From Candidatus Woesearchaeota archaeon (GTDB lineage: Archaea; Nanobdellota; Nanobdellia; Woesearchaeales; GW2011-AR9): DNA of 33,031 bases. Below the pieces are notes generated by a model. It had not been told where the DNA came from. It did not search any database and was given only the letters and a program-made list of their open reading frames with translations. Position numbers and translations under genes: made by a program. The stretch spans positions 1 to 33,031 of the forward strand of contig JABJOX010000046.1 of assembly GCA_018664115.1 (NCBI GenBank), in the 5' to 3' direction. This document shows, piece after piece, positions 575 to 32,376 of the stretch (its first letter is position 1; each line of letters starts with the position of its first letter).

Positions 575-2287
575 ATTAAATCAGAAGATCTAAATTTACA
601 TTCTTTAAAAGCTATTTCTCCAATCGATGGTAGACATAGATTAATGACCGAACCATTAGCAGATTGGTTTTCAGAATTTGCTTTAATCAAATATCGACTT
701 TTTATGGAAGTAGAATATTTGGTGGCTTTATCTGAGTGTGTTGAATTTAAAGCAGTAAGAACTTTTACTTTAGAAGAGAAAAGTTTTCTGAGAAATATTG
801 TGAAAAATTTTACTTTACAAGACGCTCAAATTGTTCAAAACATTGATCGTTTCGGTTATCAAGAAATGAAAGCAACCAATCACGATTGCAAAGCAGCAGA
901 ATATTTCTTAAAAATTAAAATGAAAGAAAGTTCTTTGCAGGATATGATTGAATTTGTTCATTTCGGATTAACTTCTGAAGATATGAATAATGTTGCTCAT
1001 GATTGTATGATTCAAGGTGCGTTAAAGTCTTATTACATTCCTGGTTTAGTTTCTTTATTAGATCAATTAGCGGTGATTGCGGAGAAAGAGAAATCTACGG
1101 CGATGTTAGGTAGAACACATGGTCAGCCTGCCACCCCTACAACTTTTGGTAAAGAGATGGCCAATTATCTTGACAGATTAAGAAAACAGTTGATTAGATT
1201 GAATAATTTTAAATTACCAGCCAAGTGTAATGGTGCGGTAGGTAATCATGCGGCACAACAATTTGCGGCGGAAGAAGTTGATTGGATTTCTTTTACAACA
1301 AGGTTTATTGAAAATCTTGGTTTTGAAGCAAATTTAATGAGCACCCAAATTGAGTTTCATGATGGATTTACAGAATTGTTTAGTATCATGATTAGTATTA
1401 ATAATATTCTAAAAGATTTAGCGATGGACTTTTGGAAATACATTTCTTTAGGATATTTACAACAACAAAAAATTGCTCACGAGGTTGGCAGTTCTACTAT
1501 GCCACACAAGATTAATCCTTGGCGGATGGAAGTTGCTGAAGGGAGTGTAGGAGAAGCAAACGCTAAATTTATTGGTTTTATCAATAAATTACAAGTTTCT
1601 AGATTACAAAGAGATTTATCTGATCATGAAGCACAGCGAGCAATTGGGGTTGGTTTTGCTCATTCTTATTTAGTAGTTTTACATGTTTTAGAAGAATTGG
1701 AAAGGTTACAAGTAAATCAAGAAAAGATTTCTAACGAATTGAAAGATTTTGGTAGCATTCTTACAGAAGCTGTACAAACTTTGTTAAGGAAAGAAGGTTA
1801 TGCACAACCTTATGAATTATTGAAAGATTTTTCTAGAGGAAGACATTGTACGGTTCAGGAGTTGCATGATTTTATTGATAATCTAGATATTAGGGAAGAA
1901 ACTAAATTAAAACTGAAATCTTTACGGCCAGAGAATTACATTGGTTTGAGTAAAGAATTGACTGAACTTGCTATTAAGAGATGGGAAGAATTCAAAGAAG
2001 AGTACGAAGAACCTTTACCGGCGGTTAAAAAAGTGTTTTTGAATGCAGAAATTAAAACATTTGAGATTGTTGAAAAGTTAAAACAAATGGAAATTGAAGT
2101 TGTTGATGAGCTTGTTTTTGAAAAAGGAATTTTGTATGTTGGACCAATAAATGAACAATTTCAAGAAGCAAAAAAGAAAGGTTTTATTTGCGTCAACTAT
2201 GATCCAGAGAGAAAGACACAAGCTGAATATAATATCATTGATTTGTTTGAACTGCCAGACTTAATTAACTCTTTTGGAGGTGACTAA
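566..2287 (+). CDS. purB: Adenylosuccinate lyase, E. coli type, with C-terminal extension
   Basis: Converts adenylosuccinate to AMP plus fumarate, and SAICAR to AICAR. Family motifs are all present: SPIDGR (about 18-23), HFGLTSED (132-139), GRTHGQPATP with the catalytic His (182-191) and the flexible signature loop GSSTMPHKINP with the catalytic Ser (308-318). The sequence follows the E. coli PurB subtype rather than the shorter Bacillus/archaeal subtype, hinting at an old acquisition from bacteria. At 573 residues it is over 100 longer than usual. After the normal end (ENYIGLSKELTELA, about 457-469) there are about 100 more residues, ending in a stretch resembling the last part of a HAD domain (YVGPINEQF, then YNIIDLFELPDLI). 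The 566 start is a GTG buried in the Shine-Dalgarno; ATT at 575, in frame, sits at the correct spacing and may be the true start. The purA start lies 1 nt after the stop, so the pair is an operon. Confidence 0.95.
   Translation: MITIKSEDLNLHSLKAISPIDGRHRLMTEPLADWFSEFALIKYRLFMEVEYLVALSECVEFKAVRTFTLEEKSFLRNIVKNFTLQDAQIVQNIDRFGYQEMKATNHDCKAAEYFLKIKMKESSLQDMIEFVHFGLTSEDMNNVAHDCMIQGALKSYYIPGLVSLLDQLAVIAEKEKSTAMLGRTHGQPATPTTFGKEMANYLDRLRKQLIRLNNFKLPAKCNGAVGNHAAQQFAAEEVDWISFTTRFIENLGFEANLMSTQIEFHDGFTELFSIMISINNILKDLAMDFWKYISLGYLQQQKIAHEVGSSTMPHKINPWRMEVAEGSVGEANAKFIGFINKLQVSRLQRDLSDHEAQRAIGVGFAHSYLVVLHVLEELERLQVNQEKISNELKDFGSILTEAVQTLLRKEGYAQPYELLKDFSRGRHCTVQELHDFIDNLDIREETKLKLKSLRPENYIGLSKELTELAIKRWEEFKEEYEEPLPAVKKVFLNAEIKTFEIVEKLKQMEIEVVDELVFEKGILYVGPINEQFQEAKKKGFICVNYDPERKTQAEYNIIDLFELPDLINSFGGD
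2277..2285 (+). promoter_or_regulatory. Strong ribosome binding site of purA
   Basis: GGAGGTGAC lies inside the last codons of purB, five bases after its GGTGA core comes ATG at 2289. It fixes the purA start at 2289 rather than the upstream in-frame codon at 2274, and suggests translational coupling with purB. Confidence 0.7.
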
Positions 2288-2288
2288 G

Positions 2289-4502
2289 ATGGCTAATATA
2301 TTTGCAATTCTTGGTGGTCAATGGGGAGATGAAGGTAAAGGTAAGTTTGTTGATTGGGCGGCAAAATATTTTGATGTTTCTGCCCGAGCTACTGGCGGTA
2401 ACAATGCGGGTCATACAGTTTACGTTGGTGAAGAAAAACATATTTTTCATTTGATTCCTTCGGCAATAACTTGGAAGAATGTTAATTGCTTACTTGGAAA
2501 TGGAATGGTGATTGATCCTTTAGTTTTACTAAAAGAAATTCATACTTTAGAACAGAAAGGATATACTATTGACAATTTGTACATCTCTGGCAGAGCACAT
2601 GTTATTTTACTTTACAATAAAGTTTTAGATAAGTATAAAGAAAAATCTAAAGGGAAAAAGAAAGTTGGCACTACTGGTAGAGGAATTGGTCCTACGTATG
2701 CTGATAAAGCTTATTACACCGGAATTAGAATAAATGATTTGTTGGATAAAGAGTTATTACAGAGAAAAGTTAGTTTACATGTTTGGGAAAAGTTTGGTGC
2801 TTTTAAGAAATTGCATGAAGATGATGACGAAATGATTATGGAATCGTTAAGACAATCTCTTCCAGAAGATTCATTTTTTGACCGTTGGAGAGAAAAATTA
2901 ATTCTTTTAGGGAATGATGTTGATTTGAATCAATTAACAGAATTATTTATTGATATTTATTACAATGTAGGGAAATTGTTAAAGAAATATTTTGTGGATA
3001 CTCGTTTGATGCTAGAACAAAATATTCGGGAAGGAAAAAGTATCTTATTAGAGGGTGCTCAGGGATTATTGTTAGATGTTGATCACGGAACTTATCCATT
3101 TGTAACTTCTTCCAACGCTTCTTTAGGTGGATTAAAAACCGGTTTAGGTTTGCCTAACATTGATTTGACTTTTAGTGTTATTAAAGCTTATACTACAAGA
3201 GTTGGAGAAGGTCCTTTTCCAACTGAATTGTTTGATGAGATGGGTGATTACTTACGAGAGAAAGGTGGCGAGTTTGGTTCAACTACAGGAAGACCAAGGA
3301 GATGTGGTTGGCATGATGCAGTTTTAACAAGACATACAGCTTTAATTAATGGTCCAAAAATTGTGATCAGTAAATTAGATGTTTTAACTGGTTTAGAAAA
3401 TATTAAGATTTGTAATTCTTACAAATATCTTGGTCCGAAAAAAGTTTTCAATGGTGAGATATATTTTTCCGGAAAGATTATCAAAGATTTTCCAGCAGAC
3501 GGATTTTTGTTAGAACATTGTGTTCCTCACGAATGGGTTGAAATGCCTGGTTGGGATGAAGATATTACTCGGATGAAAGATTATAGTGATTTGCCGGTTA
3601 ATGCTCAGAATTATTTGAATAAGATTGAAGAGTTAGGAAATGTAGAAATTAGTTTGGTAAGTATTGGTCCGGAACGGGAACAGATGATTGTTATGCCAGG
3701 CAGATGGAACTTAGAAGTTAAGCAGGAAAAGTTTGCTGTTGAGAATGAAGTTGTTACTGAGCCTGTTGTTGTTGCTGGTGAGGAAACTTTTGTTGCTGAG
3801 GAATTGGAAACAGAAGAAGCCAGTGAAATTAAAGCGATTATTTATGACATGGATAATACTTTAGTTGATACAAATGGTTTTGTTTTAGATCATTTAAGAA
3901 GAACAGCAATGAAAGTTTGTCAAGAGACTCCGTTTATGATTCCTACAGATGAAGAGATCAAGTTTGTTCAGAAAAGGAATTTAGCTTTTGAAGATATTTT
4001 TGTTTCTTTGTTTCCTGATCCCGGGGGTTATCTTCGAGATGAACCTTTATCTAGTGTAATTTTAACTAGGTATCGGGAAGATGCTCAAGAAATACCTTAT
4101 GTTTCCACTTTAGGAGGGATTGAGATTGTTAATGAAATGTCTTTTTTAGGAATTGTTCAGGGAATTGTTACTAACCGAGTGAAGATGGCTCGGCATCGTC
4201 TTGATCAAGCTGGTTATGGAGAGTTTGCATTTATTGTTCAACCAGAGGAGAAAGAACATCGGAAACCAAGTCCATTATGTTTAAATCCAGCTTTGGATTA
4301 TTTACAAGAGAAAGGAATTTCTACAAAGGAAATTATTTCTGTTGGCGATCATCCGGATGATTATTTAGCGGCTCAAGGAGCAGGTGTGAAGTTTATTGCG
4401 GTCTTGACTGGCGAAAGCAGAAAAGAAGATTTTGTGGAATTGGGATTAGATGAGAGTATGGTTGTTAATAATTTAGGAGAATTAAAAGAAAAGATAAAAT
4501 AA
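2289..4502 (+). CDS. purA: Adenylosuccinate synthetase fused to a C-terminal HAD phosphatase domain
   Basis: Joins IMP and aspartate using GTP to form adenylosuccinate, the step before PurB. The synthetase part (about residues 1-475) has the nucleotide loop GGQWGDEGKGK (9-19), GGNNAGHTV with the catalytic His (36-44), GTTGRGIGPTYADK (128-141) and GSTTGRPRRCGW (331-342). An acidic, Val/Glu-rich linker (about 477-513) leads to an extra domain of about 220 residues. That domain has every HAD motif: DMDNTLVDT (520-528), the Thr of IVTNR (628), the Lys of RKPSP (659) and GDHPDD (686-691), with a helical cap between motifs I and II. The domain therefore looks catalytically intact. A normal PurA is about 430 residues and carries no phosphatase. 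The HAD substrate is unknown; a nucleotide such as IMP or AMP, or removal of a damaged by-product, is only an inference. The start at 2289 follows a near-perfect Shine-Dalgarno. Confidence 0.95.
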   Translation: MANIFAILGGQWGDEGKGKFVDWAAKYFDVSARATGGNNAGHTVYVGEEKHIFHLIPSAITWKNVNCLLGNGMVIDPLVLLKEIHTLEQKGYTIDNLYISGRAHVILLYNKVLDKYKEKSKGKKKVGTTGRGIGPTYADKAYYTGIRINDLLDKELLQRKVSLHVWEKFGAFKKLHEDDDEMIMESLRQSLPEDSFFDRWREKLILLGNDVDLNQLTELFIDIYYNVGKLLKKYFVDTRLMLEQNIREGKSILLEGAQGLLLDVDHGTYPFVTSSNASLGGLKTGLGLPNIDLTFSVIKAYTTRVGEGPFPTELFDEMGDYLREKGGEFGSTTGRPRRCGWHDAVLTRHTALINGPKIVISKLDVLTGLENIKICNSYKYLGPKKVFNGEIYFSGKIIKDFPADGFLLEHCVPHEWVEMPGWDEDITRMKDYSDLPVNAQNYLNKIEELGNVEISLVSIGPEREQMIVMPGRWNLEVKQEKFAVENEVVTEPVVVAGEETFVAEELETEEASEIKAIIYDMDNTLVDTNGFVLDHLRRTAMKVCQETPFMIPTDEEIKFVQKRNLAFEDIFVSLFPDPGGYLRDEPLSSVILTRYREDAQEIPYVSTLGGIEIVNEMSFLGIVQGIVTNRVKMARHRLDQAGYGEFAFIVQPEEKEHRKPSPLCLNPALDYLQEKGISTKEIISVGDHPDDYLAAQGAGVKFIAVLTGESRKEDFVELGLDESMVVNNLGELKEKIK

Positions 4503-18706: not shown

Positions 18707-20293
18707 ATGGAACAAAAACAATTAGATGAAGAAGATACTTTTTTTGGTGAAGAATTTATTGAGGATGAGACTTCTAAAGAAGAAATTAAAGTTGAATCGT
18801 TAAATGAAGAGAAAATAAAAAAAAATAAAAAAACTTCAATTAAAAAAGAAAAAACTGTAAAAAATATTGAAGAAAAAGTTGAAGAAAAGGTGGAAGATAA
18901 AGTGGAAATTATTCCTAATGATGAAAAAGTTAATGAACCCAAAGAAGAAGTTAAAACTGCTGTAAAAGAAACTGAGAAAGTAGAACCAGTAGCTCCAATT
19001 GATCCTTGGGATGATGAAGAAGATGAAGGTGGACTTTTTAAGAATACTTCTGGTTGGAAATTAATTGCTGGAATTTTGTTAGTTTTATTAGTGGCTTCAA
19101 TTTATACTAATGGTTTTGGGATGGCTGGAGATTCGAATAGTCAGGGTTTATCTTTATCTGAGGCGGAAAGTAAGGCATTAGGTTATGTTAACGAAAATTT
19201 ATTACAAGCACCTTTTGTTGCTGAATTAGAAAGTTCTGAAGATGTAGGTAATTTATACAAAGTAACTTTATCTGTAGCAGGTCAAACAGTAGATTCATAT
19301 TTGACTAAAGATGGAAATTTGTTTTTTCCTCAGGGATTTGAAACAGGTGGATCTGTTGAAGGGTCTGTTTCTGATGAAACTGAGTTGGTAGAAGTGTCTT
19401 TAGATGATGATGCTGTTAAAGGGGATGCGAATGCTCCGGTAACAATTGTAGAATTTAGTGATTATGAATGTCCATTTTGTGGAAAGTATGTTCAGGAAAC
19501 TTATCCTAGTATTGTAAATGAATATATTAATACTGGAAAAGTTAAATATGTTTTCAGAGATTTCCCGTTAAGTTTTCATCAAAATGCACAGAAAGCTTCA
19601 GAAGCAGCAGAATGTGCTGGTGAACAGGGTAAGTATTGGGAAATGCATGATTACTTGTTTGCAAACCAAGATTATTTGGCTGTTGAGAATTTGAAAGGTT
19701 ACGCTAAAGATTTAGGTTTAGATACTGCTGAGTTTAATGATTGTTTAGATTCAGGTAAGTTTGCTGATGAAGTTGAAGCAGATTTGTTGGATGGTCAAGC
19801 TTATGGCGTTTCTGGAACTCCTGCATTCTTTATTAACGGAAAATTGATTTCTGGAGCTTTGCCTTTTGCAGCTTTTAAAGCTGAGATTGATGCTGCTTTG
19901 GCTACTGCTGGAGAAACTGTAGATGAAGTTGCTGAAGAAATTGATTTAGGTGAAGAAGAAACTTCTGATTTAGTTTTGCCTGTAGTAGAAGAGCCAGTTG
20001 TTGAGGAGCCTGTTGTTGAAGATGTTGTTGAAGTTAAAATGGTTCCGGTAACTGCAAAGAAATGGATGTTTGGTCCAAATAAGATTGTGGTTGAAAAAGG
20101 AAATGTTGTTCAGTTGAATATTATTCCTCAGGGAGTAGAGTTTACTTTTGCTGTACCTGCGTTTGGTATTGAACAGGAAATAACTGGAGCAACTATGGTT
20201 GAACTTACTGCTGATAAAGTAGGAACATTTGAGTTTAAGTGTTCTAGCTGTGAAGATTGGCGTGGAATGACTGGAACTTTAGTAGTTGAATAA
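18707..20293 (+). CDS. Membrane-anchored DsbA-like oxidoreductase fused to a cupredoxin-like domain
   Basis: The 528-residue protein has a charged, Lys/Glu-rich cytoplasmic stretch (1-115), one membrane helix (about 117-133) and a small beta domain (about 145-210). Then comes a DsbA/DsbG-like thioredoxin fold (about 228-400) with DYECPFCGK (active-site Cys 255 and 258) and the cis-proline loop SGTPAFFINGKLISG (P372). A Val/Glu/Pro-rich linker (425-445) leads to a cupredoxin-fold domain (about 443-528) resembling cytochrome-oxidase subunit II: KKWMFGPNKIVVEKG, then FEFKCSSCEDWRGM. The copper ligands seem incomplete: the first His is absent and the CuA motif is reduced to C512, C515 and M521. 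The CSSC pair could be a redox disulfide instead. It probably forms or isomerises disulfides in surface proteins. The DsbA part is certain; the role of the cupredoxin domain is open. Confidence 0.88.
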   Translation: MEQKQLDEEDTFFGEEFIEDETSKEEIKVESLNEEKIKKNKKTSIKKEKTVKNIEEKVEEKVEDKVEIIPNDEKVNEPKEEVKTAVKETEKVEPVAPIDPWDDEEDEGGLFKNTSGWKLIAGILLVLLVASIYTNGFGMAGDSNSQGLSLSEAESKALGYVNENLLQAPFVAELESSEDVGNLYKVTLSVAGQTVDSYLTKDGNLFFPQGFETGGSVEGSVSDETELVEVSLDDDAVKGDANAPVTIVEFSDYECPFCGKYVQETYPSIVNEYINTGKVKYVFRDFPLSFHQNAQKASEAAECAGEQGKYWEMHDYLFANQDYLAVENLKGYAKDLGLDTAEFNDCLDSGKFADEVEADLLDGQAYGVSGTPAFFINGKLISGALPFAAFKAEIDAALATAGETVDEVAEEIDLGEEETSDLVLPVVEEPVVEEPVVEDVVEVKMVPVTAKKWMFGPNKIVVEKGNVVQLNIIPQGVEFTFAVPAFGIEQEITGATMVELTADKVGTFEFKCSSCEDWRGMTGTLVVE

Positions 20294-27515: not shown

Positions 27516-27719
27516 ATGGATTGTAAACAAGAAGAAAATTTAGTGAATTGTAAGTGCACTTATCCTGGCTGTTCACGGAAAGGGATTTGTTGCGAATGTA
27601 TTAGGCATCATTTGGCTAACAGAGAACTTCCTGGCTGTTGTTTTGATAAGGAAGGAGAGGCTAGTTATGATAGAAGTTTTGAACATTTCGTTAAGTTGGT
27701 TAGCGAGAAGAAAGTTTGA
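27516..27719 (+). CDS. DUF6485 small Cys-rich protein
   Basis: A 67-residue protein with eight Cys (CKCTYPGCSRKGICCECIRH, then PGCCF), matching the DUF6485 pattern of C-x-C-x-Y-x-x-C-x-R-K-G-x-C-C-x-C, ELPGC and a final YDRSFEHF. The Cys and His arrangement suggests a metal, probably zinc, site; the function is unknown. The first ATG has no Shine-Dalgarno but a TATA-like AGTTTAAAA about 28 nt upstream, so it is probably leaderless. It ends 9 nt before the DJ-1/PfpI gene and is cotranscribed with it. Confidence 0.85.
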   Translation: MDCKQEENLVNCKCTYPGCSRKGICCECIRHHLANRELPGCCFDKEGEASYDRSFEHFVKLVSEKKV

Positions 27720-27728
27720 GGTGGAAAA

Positions 27729-28247
27729 ATGAAAAAAGTATTATTAATTATTGCTCAGCAAGATTATCAAGATCATGAGTGTGGAGCTCCGAAGAAGATT
27801 CTGGAAGATGCAGGAATTGAAGTAGTGATTGCTTCTAAACAGATTGGAGTTTGTCATGGTGCTTTTGGTGCTGAGGTTGAAGCAACTGTTGCTATTGCAG
27901 AAGTAAATGTTTCTGATTTTGATGCGATTATTTTTATTGGTGGTGCTGGTGCTGTTGGATATCAGCACGATGTACAGGCACATTTAACTGCACAAGAAGC
28001 GATTAATCGTGGGAAAATTTTAGGGGCGATTTGTATTGCACCAACAATACTTGCTTACGCTGGTGTTTTGGAAGGAAAGAAAGTTACTGTTTGGAATCAA
28101 GATGGTAAACAGGCTGAAATTCTTACTAAGAATGGTGCAGAGTTTGTAGATGAGATGGTTGTTGTTGATGGAAAGATCGTTACTGCGAATGGTCCGCCGG
28201 CAGCAGAAGCGTTTGGAAAGAAGATTTTAGAAATGTTGAAAGAGTAG
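27729..28247 (+). CDS. DJ-1/PfpI family protein
   Basis: The 172-residue protein has the class I glutamine-amidotransferase-like fold of PfpI/DJ-1: KKVLLIIAQQDYQDHE (conserved Glu 17), FDAIIFIGGAGAVGY, the nucleophile elbow GAICIAP (Cys 102), VTANGPPAAEAFGKKI at the end. Members act as proteases, glyoxalases or deglycases, or redox-sensitive chaperones; sequence alone does not choose. The His that follows the Cys in PfpI proteases is Ile here, which argues against the classic protease triad. The Shine-Dalgarno GAGGTGG precedes it, and it follows the DUF6485 gene by 9 nt, so they form an operon. Confidence 0.9.
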   Translation: MKKVLLIIAQQDYQDHECGAPKKILEDAGIEVVIASKQIGVCHGAFGAEVEATVAIAEVNVSDFDAIIFIGGAGAVGYQHDVQAHLTAQEAINRGKILGAICIAPTILAYAGVLEGKKVTVWNQDGKQAEILTKNGAEFVDEMVVVDGKIVTANGPPAAEAFGKKILEMLKE

Positions 28248-28270: not shown

Positions 28271-28331
28271 GTAACCTATATAAATGATAAAGTATTCTTT
28301 TCAAGTAATTATACTTAGAGGTGAATAAAAG
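28271..28331 (+). promoter_or_regulatory. Shared-type promoter and leader, copy A
   Basis: TATATAAAT (28277-28285), AAAGTATTCTTT (28289-28300) and a leader ending GAGGTGAATAAAAG before ATG 28332. From 28276 to the ATG, 52 of 56 bases match copy B (29795-29850). The first 30 bases from 28271 match copy C (31351-31380) at 28 positions. Confidence 0.7.
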
Positions 28332-29762
28332 ATGGTAAAAAAGAGAGTGAAAAAAGTTAATAAGAAAGTAAAATCTTCAAATGGAGTTAAAGATTTTTTT
28401 ATGAACAAATATTTTGTTTCTGCGGTATTTATATTGGTTATCGTTGGTGGATTTTTTTTAATAAGTACGTTAAGTCAAAATGAAGAAGCAATTGCTGGTG
28501 AAGCGTATCGAAGAAGTATCACTAGTAAGTCTCCAGAACCTTTTTTTCAGCTTTACAAAGAATATAAAACTTTTCATGAGATGAGTGGTGAAGGAAAAAT
28601 AACTTTTAAAAAATTTGATGATGCTCTAATTCGAAGTAATGTTTTTTTAATTGATTCTCGTAGAGATTATCGTAATGAACGAGCAGAGTTAAAAAATAGT
28701 TATTCTAGTATTAGAAAGTTGGTTAACAAAGTTTATGCCGGAGCTTCATCTGATACAATTTCATTAACTGCTTGGTATATGGTTTTTGAGGATAGATGGA
28801 AAACAGAAACATTTGGTCGAACTTTTGACAAACCAATCAATCCTACTTTTTTTAGAAAATTGTCTAAGCTTAGAAGTGGGGAAACAATTATTGTTGAAAA
28901 AGAAATTAAGCGTTCTTCACGGAATAGTTTAACTGGGGCAGCAGCAGTAGGAGGAAATTCTGGTGGTACTGCTTTTTCTGATTGTGCTGAGGGTGATAAT
29001 CCTAAAGCAAGTGGTGGTTTAGTTGGTACTTCAGTAGATCCTACTGGCCCAACTGGAACTGGTTCTTCTGGACAACCAACTCCTTATAGTGAAGGGGGGA
29101 ATGGTGATGCTTGCGGTAATTTAGATCCTAATAAAGTTGGTTTTGGTTCTAGTAGTACTGATCCTTTTGATGATTTGCAAGATGAAGCAAAGAAATTTGC
29201 CGAACAAACTGGTGAAGATGGATATGCAGAACAGACTGGTGGAGAGGAATCTGCGGAACAAACTGGTGGAGAGACAGAACAAACTGGTGAAGGTGGATTT
29301 GCAGAACAAACTGGTGGGGAGACAGAACAAACTGGTTCTGGAGATTCTGGTGGTTCTGGCATGTTTAGAGAAATGGAACAAAAAGAAGAAGAACATAAAG
29401 GTGAAGAAGGAACTTGGCAAGAAATTTATTCATCAGACTCTGGTGGTGGCAGTTCACAAAAAATAGGTGATGGAACTGGTGATGATTGTGGTGGTGCCGG
29501 AAGTAATGCTGGAAGTACTTTAATGGATTGTGCCGGTGGAGATGAGGATGGTTGTGATGAGGACGATATTGCTCCTGCTGGAATGGGCGATCAAAATTAT
29601 GGGGATTCTGGTTGTGGTGGTGGTGGAGCAGATCCAGCCATGGTTCAAGCAGATATCACTCAAAGCCATATTTCTGGTTATAATCCCATGGATTCCGCTA
29701 GTATGGACAAATTGGGTTTGAGTACCTTTGGAGGAGAGCTTTTCATAATGTTTCCAAAGTAA
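28332..29762 (+). CDS. Membrane-anchored Gly/Ser/Cys-rich protein A with EQTG repeats
   Basis: The 476-residue protein has a very basic N-terminus, one membrane helix (about 28-46) and, just after it, EEAIAGEAYR, which could be a cleavage or processing site. A conserved helical domain (about 68-185) contains FQLYKEYKTFHEM, DDALIRSNVF and LVNKVYAGAS. The rest (about 200-476) is low-complexity Gly/Ser/Thr/Asp/Glu, with six EQTG repeats (291-335), scattered Cys and the block GTSVDPTGPTGTGSSGQPTP (232-251), shared at the same residue positions by the paralog at 29851. The topology suggests a long, flexible surface protein. No known family or catalytic motif was recognised. An adhesin, S-layer partner or host-contact protein is speculation. 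The start is fixed by GAGGTGA. Confidence 0.8.
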   Translation: MVKKRVKKVNKKVKSSNGVKDFFMNKYFVSAVFILVIVGGFFLISTLSQNEEAIAGEAYRRSITSKSPEPFFQLYKEYKTFHEMSGEGKITFKKFDDALIRSNVFLIDSRRDYRNERAELKNSYSSIRKLVNKVYAGASSDTISLTAWYMVFEDRWKTETFGRTFDKPINPTFFRKLSKLRSGETIIVEKEIKRSSRNSLTGAAAVGGNSGGTAFSDCAEGDNPKASGGLVGTSVDPTGPTGTGSSGQPTPYSEGGNGDACGNLDPNKVGFGSSSTDPFDDLQDEAKKFAEQTGEDGYAEQTGGEESAEQTGGETEQTGEGGFAEQTGGETEQTGSGDSGGSGMFREMEQKEEEHKGEEGTWQEIYSSDSGGGSSQKIGDGTGDDCGGAGSNAGSTLMDCAGGDEDGCDEDDIAPAGMGDQNYGDSGCGGGGADPAMVQADITQSHISGYNPMDSASMDKLGLSTFGGELFIMFPK

Positions 29763-29785
29763 TTTTTTCTTTTCTTTCTTTCTTT
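29763..29785 (+). terminator. T-rich terminator after protein A
   Basis: The stop codon is followed directly by a 23-nt tract of T broken only by single C residues, typical of archaeal transcript ends. The next promoter starts 10 nt later. Confidence 0.5.
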
Positions 29786-29794
29786 AACCACAAC

Positions 29795-29850
29795 TAATAT
29801 AAATGATAAAGTGTTCTTTTCAAGTAATTATACTTAGAGGTGGATAAAAG
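29795..29850 (+). promoter_or_regulatory. Shared-type promoter and leader, copy B
   Basis: AATATAAAT (29796-29804), AAAGTGTTCTTT (29808-29819) and a leader ending GAGGTGGATAAAAG before ATG 29851. It is nearly identical to copy A with the same spacing, showing that promoter, leader and gene were duplicated together. Confidence 0.7.
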
Positions 29851-31320
29851 ATGGTAAAAAAGAGAGTGAATAAAAAATCTAAATCAAATGGATTTGCTGA
29901 TTTTTTTAAAAATAAATATTTTGTTTCTGCGGTATTTGTTTTGATTATCGTTAGCGGATTTTTTTTAATGAGTACGTTAAGTCAAAGTGAAGAAGCAATT
30001 GCTGGTGAAGCTTATCGGAAGAGCGTATCTCGGGGAACTACAAGTCCTTATTTTCAGTTGTATAAAGAGTATAAAACTTTTCATGAGATGAGTGCCGGTA
30101 AAGTTACTTTTAGAACTTTTAATGATGCTTTAATGCGAAGTAATGTTTTTTATGCAGATTCGTTTAGTCGTGTTCCTGAAAGTAGAATAGAAACAAGAAA
30201 TAGTTATAGAGATTTGAAAAAGTTGGTTAATGAAGTTTATGCTGGGAAAAGCAAAAGTTCTATTAAGAGCATTGCTTGGTTAATGGTTTATGAAGATTCT
30301 GTTAAGATGAAATTATTTGGTAAAATTGATAAAAAGCCTTTAAATCCTCTTTTTTTAAGACAACTTAAAGAAATTTTGGTAGGGACAACTGAAAGCGGTG
30401 GCCCTAGTGGTAGCGGAGGTTCTAGTGGTGGTTCTATTGACACTGGTTTCCTTGGAGGAGGCTCCAGTGGTGGTTTTGATTGTGGTGAAGGTTCCGGTAG
30501 TGGCGGCGCTATGGGCGAAGCCGGTGGTGGCAATAATCCAATGGGGACATCTGTTGATCCAATGGGTCCAACTGGAACTGATTCTTCTGGACAACCAACC
30601 CCTTTTAGTGAAGTGGGTTATGGTGATCCTTATAATGCTGGTGGACCTTGTGGTCCTGGCGGTTCTATTGATGCTGATAAGTTAGGTGGTCAAACTGGTA
30701 ATGAAGGTTCTGGTGATAGTTCTAGTGTGGATAATGATATGTATAAAGGTAATAGTGGTGTGACTTATACTGAAACGAACAAGAATAATGATGGTTCATA
30801 TGACCAAACAGAACATACTTACAAGACTATTGGTGAATCTTATGGTGTGGGCGGAACTAAATACGATGTTACACATACCTCACAAACTAGCTCTTATGAT
30901 TCAAATGGTGAAATGTCTGGGATGGGGGCAACTTCAACATCTACTGGCTCATATAACCAACAAGAATTTAATGACCTTAAGGATGACATTAAAACTGGCA
31001 TGTCGAAAGGGTTTGATCCTTTAGGTGACGATGGTGGAAATAATTGTGGTCCTGGTGGTCCTGGTGGAGCTTTTATGGATTGTGCTTCTGATGACGAAGC
31101 TATCTGTGGTCCTGGCGGTGCTGATCAATCTGTTGTTAAAAATACTGGTGGCGGACCTCAAGGTCAAACAGCTGGTTCGTTTGGTTGTGGTGTTGGAGAA
31201 GCAGCAATGATGATGATGAAGAAAGAGATGTTGTGGGATCCGAACCCAATTGATTTAGTGTCAAACAATTTAGGAAACATGTTTAACACTATGCAAGAAG
31301 GAGATTTTAACAACAAGTAA
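29851..31320 (+). CDS. Membrane-anchored Gly/Ser/Cys-rich protein B, paralog of protein A
   Basis: The 489-residue protein has the same build as protein A: basic start, membrane helix (about 24-42), EEAIAGEAYR (48-57), the helical domain (about 66-178, FQLYKEYKTFHEM, NDALMRSNVF, LVNEVYAG) and then a low-complexity region. That region differs: instead of EQTG repeats it has Gly/Ser blocks, CGPGG motifs (267, 399 and 419) and a Thr/Tyr/Ser-rich stretch (about 303-370, with VTYTETN and THTSQTSSYD) that could form beta strands. The block GTSVDPMGPTG (232-242) and the MDCA motif (409-412) are shared with A. The anchor and helical part have been held constant while the outer part diverged, as seen in surface proteins under selection for variation. 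Function unknown. Confidence 0.8.
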   Translation: MVKKRVNKKSKSNGFADFFKNKYFVSAVFVLIIVSGFFLMSTLSQSEEAIAGEAYRKSVSRGTTSPYFQLYKEYKTFHEMSAGKVTFRTFNDALMRSNVFYADSFSRVPESRIETRNSYRDLKKLVNEVYAGKSKSSIKSIAWLMVYEDSVKMKLFGKIDKKPLNPLFLRQLKEILVGTTESGGPSGSGGSSGGSIDTGFLGGGSSGGFDCGEGSGSGGAMGEAGGGNNPMGTSVDPMGPTGTDSSGQPTPFSEVGYGDPYNAGGPCGPGGSIDADKLGGQTGNEGSGDSSSVDNDMYKGNSGVTYTETNKNNDGSYDQTEHTYKTIGESYGVGGTKYDVTHTSQTSSYDSNGEMSGMGATSTSTGSYNQQEFNDLKDDIKTGMSKGFDPLGDDGGNNCGPGGPGGAFMDCASDDEAICGPGGADQSVVKNTGGGPQGQTAGSFGCGVGEAAMMMMKKEMLWDPNPIDLVSNNLGNMFNTMQEGDFNNK

Positions 31321-31350: not shown

Positions 31351-31407
31351 GTAACTTATATAAATAATAAAGTATTCTTTATCTTATAAAAAGAGGTTAA
31401 TAGATAA
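31351..31407 (+). promoter_or_regulatory. Shared-type promoter and leader, copy C (kinase gene)
   Basis: TATATAAAT (31357-31365) and AAAGTATTCTTT (31369-31380) match copies A and B, but the leader after 31381 differs and ends GAGGTTAATAGATAA before ATG 31408. The core promoter alone is conserved, which argues for shared regulation rather than mere duplication. Confidence 0.65.
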
Positions 31408-32376
31408 ATGATTAAGCGTTATGATGTGCTTTGTGTAGGTTCGGCTACTTTAGATAATTTCTTAACTACTGATTGTTCTTTAAAATCTGTTAAATTGGGT
31501 GATAAAGTTTTAGTAAAAAAAATAGAGAAACATTCTGGTGGTGGAGCTACTAATTCTGCTGCAGCGTTATCTAAATTAGGGTTAAAAGTGAAGTTATTAT
31601 CCAAGTTAGGTAATGATCATGATGCTGAGTTTATACTAAGAGAATTAAAACAATATAACTTGAAAAATGTTTGTTTACATCCAAGTAAACATAATACTGA
31701 TTTTTCTACAATTATTTCTTGTCCGCATAAAGATAGGGATAGAATTATTTATGTTCACAAAGGTGCTTCTCGAGATTTAAGTGTTAATGATTTTAAGAAA
31801 TCGCAATTAAAAGCGAAATGGATTTATTTGGCTAGCTTAATGGGAAAATCATTTCAAACAGGAAAAGAGATTGCTCAACACGCAAAGAAAAAGAAGATTA
31901 AGTTATTGTTTAACCCCTCTTTATACTTAGCAAAAAAAGGCAAGAAGTATTTGAAATTGGTATTGGAAGCAACTACTCTTCTTGTTTTAAATAAGAAAGA
32001 AGCACAGGTATTATTAGGAACAAAAACTAATTCTTACAAAGAATTGTTGATGGGGTTATACGAATTGGGTCCGGAAACAATAGTGATTTCTAATGGTCGA
32101 AAGATGACTTATGCTTTTCACGATGATAATTTTTATTCTATTTTACCTACAGATATTAAAGTTATTCACACTGCGGGAGCAGGAGATGCTTTCACTTCTG
32201 GGTTATTGGCAGGGATGATCAAGAAATATTCTTTTGAAGATGCTTTAAAGTTAGGTGTTGCTAATTCGTTATCTGTGATTCAACATGTTGGTACAAAGAA
32301 TAAGCTGCTTAATGAAAGGGAAGCAAAGTTGATGATGAAGAAATATAGGTTGAAGGTGGTTAAGCATGCATTCTAG
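31408..32376 (+). CDS. PfkB/ribokinase-family carbohydrate or nucleoside kinase
   Basis: The 322-residue protein has the family fold: VLCVGSATLDNF at the N-terminus, HSGGGATNSAAALSKLGL (about 43-60, PfkB signature 1 region), LVLNKKEAQVLLG, TIVISNGRKMTYAF, and signature 2 with the catalytic Asp in HTAGAGDAFTSGLLAGM (about 254-270). It phosphorylates a sugar, sugar phosphate or nucleoside; the substrate cannot be read from sequence. Archaeal relatives include ribokinase, nucleoside kinase and ADP-sugar kinases. Its promoter matches those of the two preceding surface-protein genes. It overlaps the next gene by 11 nt, so the two are coupled. Confidence 0.88.
   Translation: MIKRYDVLCVGSATLDNFLTTDCSLKSVKLGDKVLVKKIEKHSGGGATNSAAALSKLGLKVKLLSKLGNDHDAEFILRELKQYNLKNVCLHPSKHNTDFSTIISCPHKDRDRIIYVHKGASRDLSVNDFKKSQLKAKWIYLASLMGKSFQTGKEIAQHAKKKKIKLLFNPSLYLAKKGKKYLKLVLEATTLLVLNKKEAQVLLGTKTNSYKELLMGLYELGPETIVISNGRKMTYAFHDDNFYSILPTDIKVIHTAGAGDAFTSGLLAGMIKKYSFEDALKLGVANSLSVIQHVGTKNKLLNEREAKLMMKKYRLKVVKHAF

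Follow-up and report, generated by a model that had tools for sequence, protein, structure and literature searches.

We lean toward the view that two neighboring genes of a woesearchaeal contig, here called P1 and P2, encode fast-evolving proteins anchored in the membrane with the N-terminus inside and the C-terminus outside, which would display a Gly/Ser/Asp-rich ectodomain with three disulfides at the cell surface. The contig, a 33-kb stretch of 33,031 nucleotides that was analyzed whole and is referred to below as the window, belongs to a 1.1-Mb genome in 68 contigs (87% complete), and P1 and P2 are the only copies of their family there. Woesearchaeota are mostly uncultivated, and little is understood about how they interact with other cells. 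The most portable result is the leader motif of the two proteins. With a compact locus holding two, one or zero copies within one genus and a leader marking a set of otherwise unrecognizable outer domains, Woesearchaeota surface proteins could be listed from sequence, and it could be tested which of them vary with partners.

P1 (28332..29762, 476 aa) and P2 (29851..31320, 489 aa) are ORFs placed head to tail between a gene of the DJ-1/PfpI family (27729..28247, Pfam PF01965) and a PfkB-family kinase gene (31408..32376, Pfam PF00294), which are the conserved left and right neighbors in the related genomes G001 and G002 as well; these and all other features located here are on the forward strand. 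A first-pass annotation made from the sequence had called the two genes tandem paralogs with a common promoter, leader, membrane anchor, conserved domain of about 115 residues and GTSVDP block but diverging outer regions, an observation that is right and slightly understated. Each leader comprises a K/R-rich N-terminus, one transmembrane (TM) helix (residues 29-47 in P1 and 25-43 in P2) and the motif AIAGEAYR, and runs to residue 60 in P1 (28332..28511) and to residue 56 in P2 (29851..30018). The common membrane-proximal helical domain of about 115-130 residues was placed by alignment in both proteins (28539..28892 in P1 and 30046..30396 in P2) and additionally by an AlphaFold2 model in P1. 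Further along, the GTSVDP...GPTGT...SSGQPTP block (29025..29112 in P1 and 30544..30631 in P2) forms a direct repeat with 83% DNA identity and lies, as had been claimed, at the identical position in both, i.e., 693 bases from each start at residue 232. The outer regions do differ: P1 has an array of EQTG tandem repeats (29198..29336, TRF periods 27/48/21), and P2 has CGPGG three times.

The two proteins are 44% identical overall and 61% identical across 182 aligned N-terminal residues. At the DNA level, identity is 82% across 211 nt of the anchor region and 89% in the TM and motif segment (P1 residues 21-61), with 58-69% in the helical domain, 48% in the linker and, past the GTSVDP block, 47% in the remaining tail. 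Silent positions show a similar gradient, the same codon being used at 41 of 46 shared residues within the first 61 residues vs 94 of 153 in the rest (Fisher p = 2.8e-4), and the upstream DNA that includes the promoter, leader RNA and start (28273-28355 vs 29792-29874) is 94% identical over 83 nt. Since identity upstream is this high and the codons follow a gradient, the comparison suggests, on small numbers, that the 5' part has seen copying or conversion at a later date than the remaining sequence or, alternatively, is under constraint at the DNA level.

A profile of the core domain, i.e., the helical domain, retrieved five members (E <= 1.9e-46 for each) from 4 of the 352 genomes in the order, with E-values that are inflated because all five were rows of that profile; ten other matches, in 10 further genomes, were none of them better than E 0.0017. 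Single-sequence searches with the protein from genome G012 as query gave independent matches to P1 (E 2.0e-30) and P2 (E 1.1e-28). The G012 and G071 members, from another genus, are short (221-223 aa) and have no Gly-rich six-Cys tail, and they have the leader and helical domain in common with P1 and P2, which places them in the same family. When named genome contigs were scanned, P2 as the sole query gave no match and the alignment as query gave three relatives, all three from Candidatus Woesearchaeota records (JABHQW, JABHDY and PCYB), in agreement with the DPANN archaeon proposed earlier; the JABHQW relative is from the same genus as the window, and the PCYB relative is the same protein as that of G071. 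The description of the family as one of unknown type also holds, with no known-function domain found in P1, P2 or their relatives: Pfam, NCBIfam and PHROGs searches with P1 and P2 returned nothing above cutoff or with a convincing E-value. A DUF6517 match (E 0.096, Pfam) was rejected as below its own cutoff. Viral origin was likewise set aside, as viral contigs gave no relative and the PHROGs matches reached only E >= 0.035. A match of P2 to a PDB H/ACA subunit (E 0.018) was taken as a low-complexity chance match because the residues involved, 145-229, include the Gly/Ser-rich linker.

The core is predicted, with moderate confidence, to be all-helical, the best of five AlphaFold2 models having a mean pLDDT of 74 (47-61 for the other four). 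Foldseek with this model gave no match with E below 7, and a VIA-align run of the core on 11 chains gave one row with a Z of 2.0. A model of the 221-aa G012 protein was poor (mean pLDDT 57), and its Foldseek list held nothing at E <= 0.001. The lack of a fold match is no evidence of a new fold because the core alignment had only five sequences.

The genes around P1 and P2 are far better conserved than the pair itself. Between the window and G001, all seven syntenic neighbor proteins compared are 77-88% identical, vs 34% for P1 and 31% for P2 against the G001 protein across leader and core, which is below the 38% that they share with the G012 protein, which is from another genus. The outer region had been described as variable, as it is between species and between paralogs, and the divergence of the two proteins is far above that of the neighboring genes. 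This divergence could be relaxed constraint, dN being below dS in every segment of P1 and P2, with both about 0.9 in the tail.

Copy number at the locus also varies. The gene order glutamate dehydrogenase, aspS, DUF4349, HTH, Na/Ca exchanger, DJ-1, site and pfkB is found in full or in part in G001, G012 and G002, and within the genus the DJ-1/pfkB site holds two family copies in the window, one in G001 and zero in G002. In the empty site of G002 (84% complete; L179:1567-1651), the stop of a DJ-1 that is 95% identical to that of the window lies 85 bp from the pfkB start, and the gap aligns with the window's pfkB promoter and leader, its last 41 bases being identical; given the incomplete genome, a copy may lie elsewhere in G002. 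The site is empty in G012 too, where the 221-aa member adjoins aspS instead. In the single G001 copy (L004:1501-2988), codon 149 is an in-frame TAG, aligned with a Trp of P1 and P2, beyond which the frame is open for 347 codons. This TAG may reflect either a nonsense mutation of recent origin or an error in the sequence; recoding is ruled out, as TAG is the ordinary stop of 39 of the 242 long ORFs there. Because the G001 copy has this TAG and G002 has no gene at the locus, the P1/P2-type gene seems dispensable, a point that weighs against the favored reading. Just upstream of the DJ-1 gene, the window also encodes a 67-aa Cys-rich DUF6485 protein (27516-27719, Pfam E 1.9e-11), and G002 has one too.

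The promoter had been noted as duplicated, and it is indeed repeated before P1 and P2; however, the repeat is a threefold direct one, with a further copy before the pfkB gene. The 23-nt promoter-like element, ATATAAATRATAAAGTRTTCTTT, matches by pattern at exactly three places in the window, with 0 expected from shuffles, namely before P1 (28278..28300), before P2 (29797..29819) and before pfkB (31358..31380), the first two as direct repeats and the third with 94% identity over 32 nt to the P1 copy. As the third copy precedes the kinase gene, the element is not private to P1 and P2. The repeats bracket the pair, and unequal recombination between them could yield clean states of zero, one or two copies.

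The cysteines, previously described as scattered, number six in P1 and six in P2 and are not merely scattered, as the last four have near-fixed spacing. Six are also present in the G001 protein when read past its TAG, and in all three proteins every cysteine is in the tail. Cysteines 3-6, placed by spacing and tail alignment, are C386, C400, C408 and C428 in P1 (29487..29615) and C399, C411, C419 and C446 in P2 (31045..31188), giving spacings of 14/8/20 in P1, 12/8/27 in P2 and 13/8/20 in the G001 protein; six cysteines placed at random fell within these ranges in 61 of 1,000,000 trials, a figure that applies to one protein. In the aligned tails, five cysteines match between P1 and P2, four between P1 and G001 and five between P2 and G001, and shuffled tails reached these numbers in 0, 5 and 0 of 500 cases, respectively. 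The short members from G012 and G071 have two cysteines. By its sequence, the P1/P2-type ectodomain would thus fit three disulfides formed outside the cell. The disulfide machinery said to be encoded nearby does exist as a DsbA-like protein (18707-20293) about 8 kb upstream; its closeness, however, says little because 52 of the 60 genomes searched, the window's own included, have a match at E <= 1e-10.

A structural envelope filler is the alternative that survives best, although we think it rather unlikely. In that case, P1 and P2 would be anchored proteins of low complexity that add thickness or spacing to the cell coat. They would have no partner, variability would not be selected for, and their tails would drift because almost any Gly-rich, Cys-bonded chain suffices. 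The Gly content of the tails (21-23%), the small tandem repeats of P1, the nearly equal dN and dS of the tails and the one sister species with no gene at the locus would all suit such a filler. In contrast, the near-fixed spacing of the six cysteines, the conserved DNA of the GTSVDP block amid diverged tails and a W-x-P-like C-terminal end in four of the five family members (P1 being the exception) suggest specific constraints. For P1 and P2 as fast-evolving surface proteins, a role in host or cell contact or adhesion is plausible, judging from location and variability.

Comparable proteins have been described elsewhere in archaea. In Jarett et al. 2018 (PMC6142677), hypothetical cell-surface proteins of Nanoarchaeota have a high density of nonsynonymous SNPs, and their diversification is proposed to concern host binding. 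These proteins resemble P1 and P2 in being from DPANN, unannotated and faster to diversify than other categories, and that work concerns population SNPs in hypothetical surface proteins as a category, whereas ours concerns divergence between species and paralogs. Unlike that category as presented there, P1 and P2 have a defined leader, six cysteines and a changing copy number. In Thermococcales, the VARTIG modules (Makarova et al. 2021, PMC8416519) are likewise archaeal with a hypervariable C-terminal part; they contain Ig domains and precede unique combinations of downstream genes, whereas P1 and P2 show no Ig domain, having no Pfam match above cutoff, and are flanked on both sides by ordinary genes of metabolic type. 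Castelle et al. 2021 (PMC8204110), in the accessible text, report many lineage-specific DPANN families with no function prediction that are predicted to be membrane-bound or extracellular, as is the case for P1 and P2; the leader motif, tandem organization and cysteine pattern are features of P1 and P2 that were not found for those families in that text.

By charge, P1 and P2 are single-pass proteins with the N-terminus in and the C-terminus out, the net charge of the N-flank being +9 in P1 and +7 in P2 and that after the helix -1, and neither has a second TM window. A lipoprotein was rejected, as there is no lipobox Cys and the first Cys does not occur before residue 218 in P1 or 211 in P2. 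We suppose that an uncleaved N-terminal TM helix ending in AIAGEAYR would hold the helical membrane-proximal domain, from which the ectodomain with its putative disulfides would project, and that the common leader may keep export and expression constant while copies come and go.

The leader is found on other proteins as well. A search with leader and core gave, beyond the true members, weak matches mostly confined to the TM helix and following motif, which on reading were unrelated proteins with the same ending, e.g., EEAVAGEAIR. A 13-row leader profile retrieved eight further proteins outside its input with matches running through the motif, from G033 (three contigs), G065, G014, G003, G070 and G032, and all eight have GEA at the same place. 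By reading, [IV][AV]GEA-x-R lies outside the TM helix of single-pass proteins in 22 proteins from 16 of the 49 genomes of the window's taxonomic family, one of which (in G016) has GLA in place of GEA; the count is a tally, not a test, because most of these proteins built the profiles. Only matches running through the motif within that family were counted, and looser look-alikes in G062, G032 and G003 (within the family) and in G049 and G143 (outside it) were left out. In G033, five single-pass proteins on five contigs (L104-L108) have a leader ending AVAGEA and unrelated, mostly Cys-rich outer parts. Over the first 35-45 residues, these five range from similar to nearly identical, and the remainder is different; their DNA agrees throughout the leader except for numerous silent changes, and the agreement ends at the motif.

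A comparison of 19 leader proteins gave matches between outer parts at E <= 0.01 only inside the known homologous sets (P1/P2/G012/G071, G003/G032 and two of G065), apart from a marginal match of a G033 protein to P1 (E 0.006). The number of outer cysteines is even in 18 of the 19, many of which are related and thus not independent; zero was counted as even for G030 and G001, the latter read only up to its TAG, and the exception has three. The G016 protein (L116:1363-2400), with a leader of the same type (EEAVVGLAIR), contains a laminin-G/concanavalin-like Laminin_G_3 domain (E 5.6e-14), a domain typical of extracellular proteins; like the cysteines, it supports surface exposure of the outer part of P1 and P2 indirectly. 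Among the other nine leader proteins scanned for domains, only a sub-threshold EB-module match was found.

A profile of 18 leaders applied across the order matched 44 of 352 genomes at E <= 0.001, with the weak matches mostly being hydrophobic helices. The same number, 44 of 352, was reached by a control profile in which the end of the motif was reversed; hence, profile matches give no basis for claiming a spread of the leader outside the family, and we dropped an order-wide spread as a claim. In a 400-kb sample of G001 with 394 ORFs, the motif is rare, the [EQ]A type accounting for three of 26 pattern matches, one of them in a lipoprotein-like ORF. Lipoprotein-like ORFs in G001 (L066:11537-12533) and G012 (L005:9385-9864) have AIAGQA or TIVGEA about 50-65 residues in, not directly beside the hydrophobic segment. 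No description of the motif was found in the literature searched, which does not prove that none exists. A bolder reading, which we offer tentatively and consider doubtful, is that the TM helix and the [IV][AV]GEA-x-R after it might together be a hitherto undescribed signal for sorting or processing, general in Woesearchaeota, by which interchangeable disulfide-bonded passengers are displayed on the cell surface. GEA would then be recognized by a dedicated membrane enzyme that trims, releases or attaches the passenger, and P1 and P2 would be one passenger family, variable via promoter-mediated gene gain and loss.

It is improbable, in our view, that P1 and P2 are instead secreted, with an N-terminal signal peptide whose cleavage at or close to AIA/GEA frees the mature protein instead of leaving it anchored. 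Signal peptidase sites have the form A-x-A, which the AIA preceding GEA resembles, and homology among the five G033 proteins stops at the GEA boundary. However, I or V precedes GEA in some members (MIGEA, VVGEA), unlike A-x-A; the conserved part is GEA itself, which signal peptidase I does not require; and GEA starts 6-14 residues past the predicted helix end. That the tail faces the cytoplasm, or that the genes are pseudogenes in the making, is very improbable: the in-frame ordinary stop of the G001 copy and the G002 site with no gene would suit decay, but P1 and P2 are intact frames of 476 and 489 codons with their own promoters, and the charge pattern and even cysteine numbers favor the outside.

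Elsewhere in the window, a 742-aa ORF (2274-4502) reads like what we take to be an adenylosuccinate synthetase with a C-terminal HAD-like phosphatase part.
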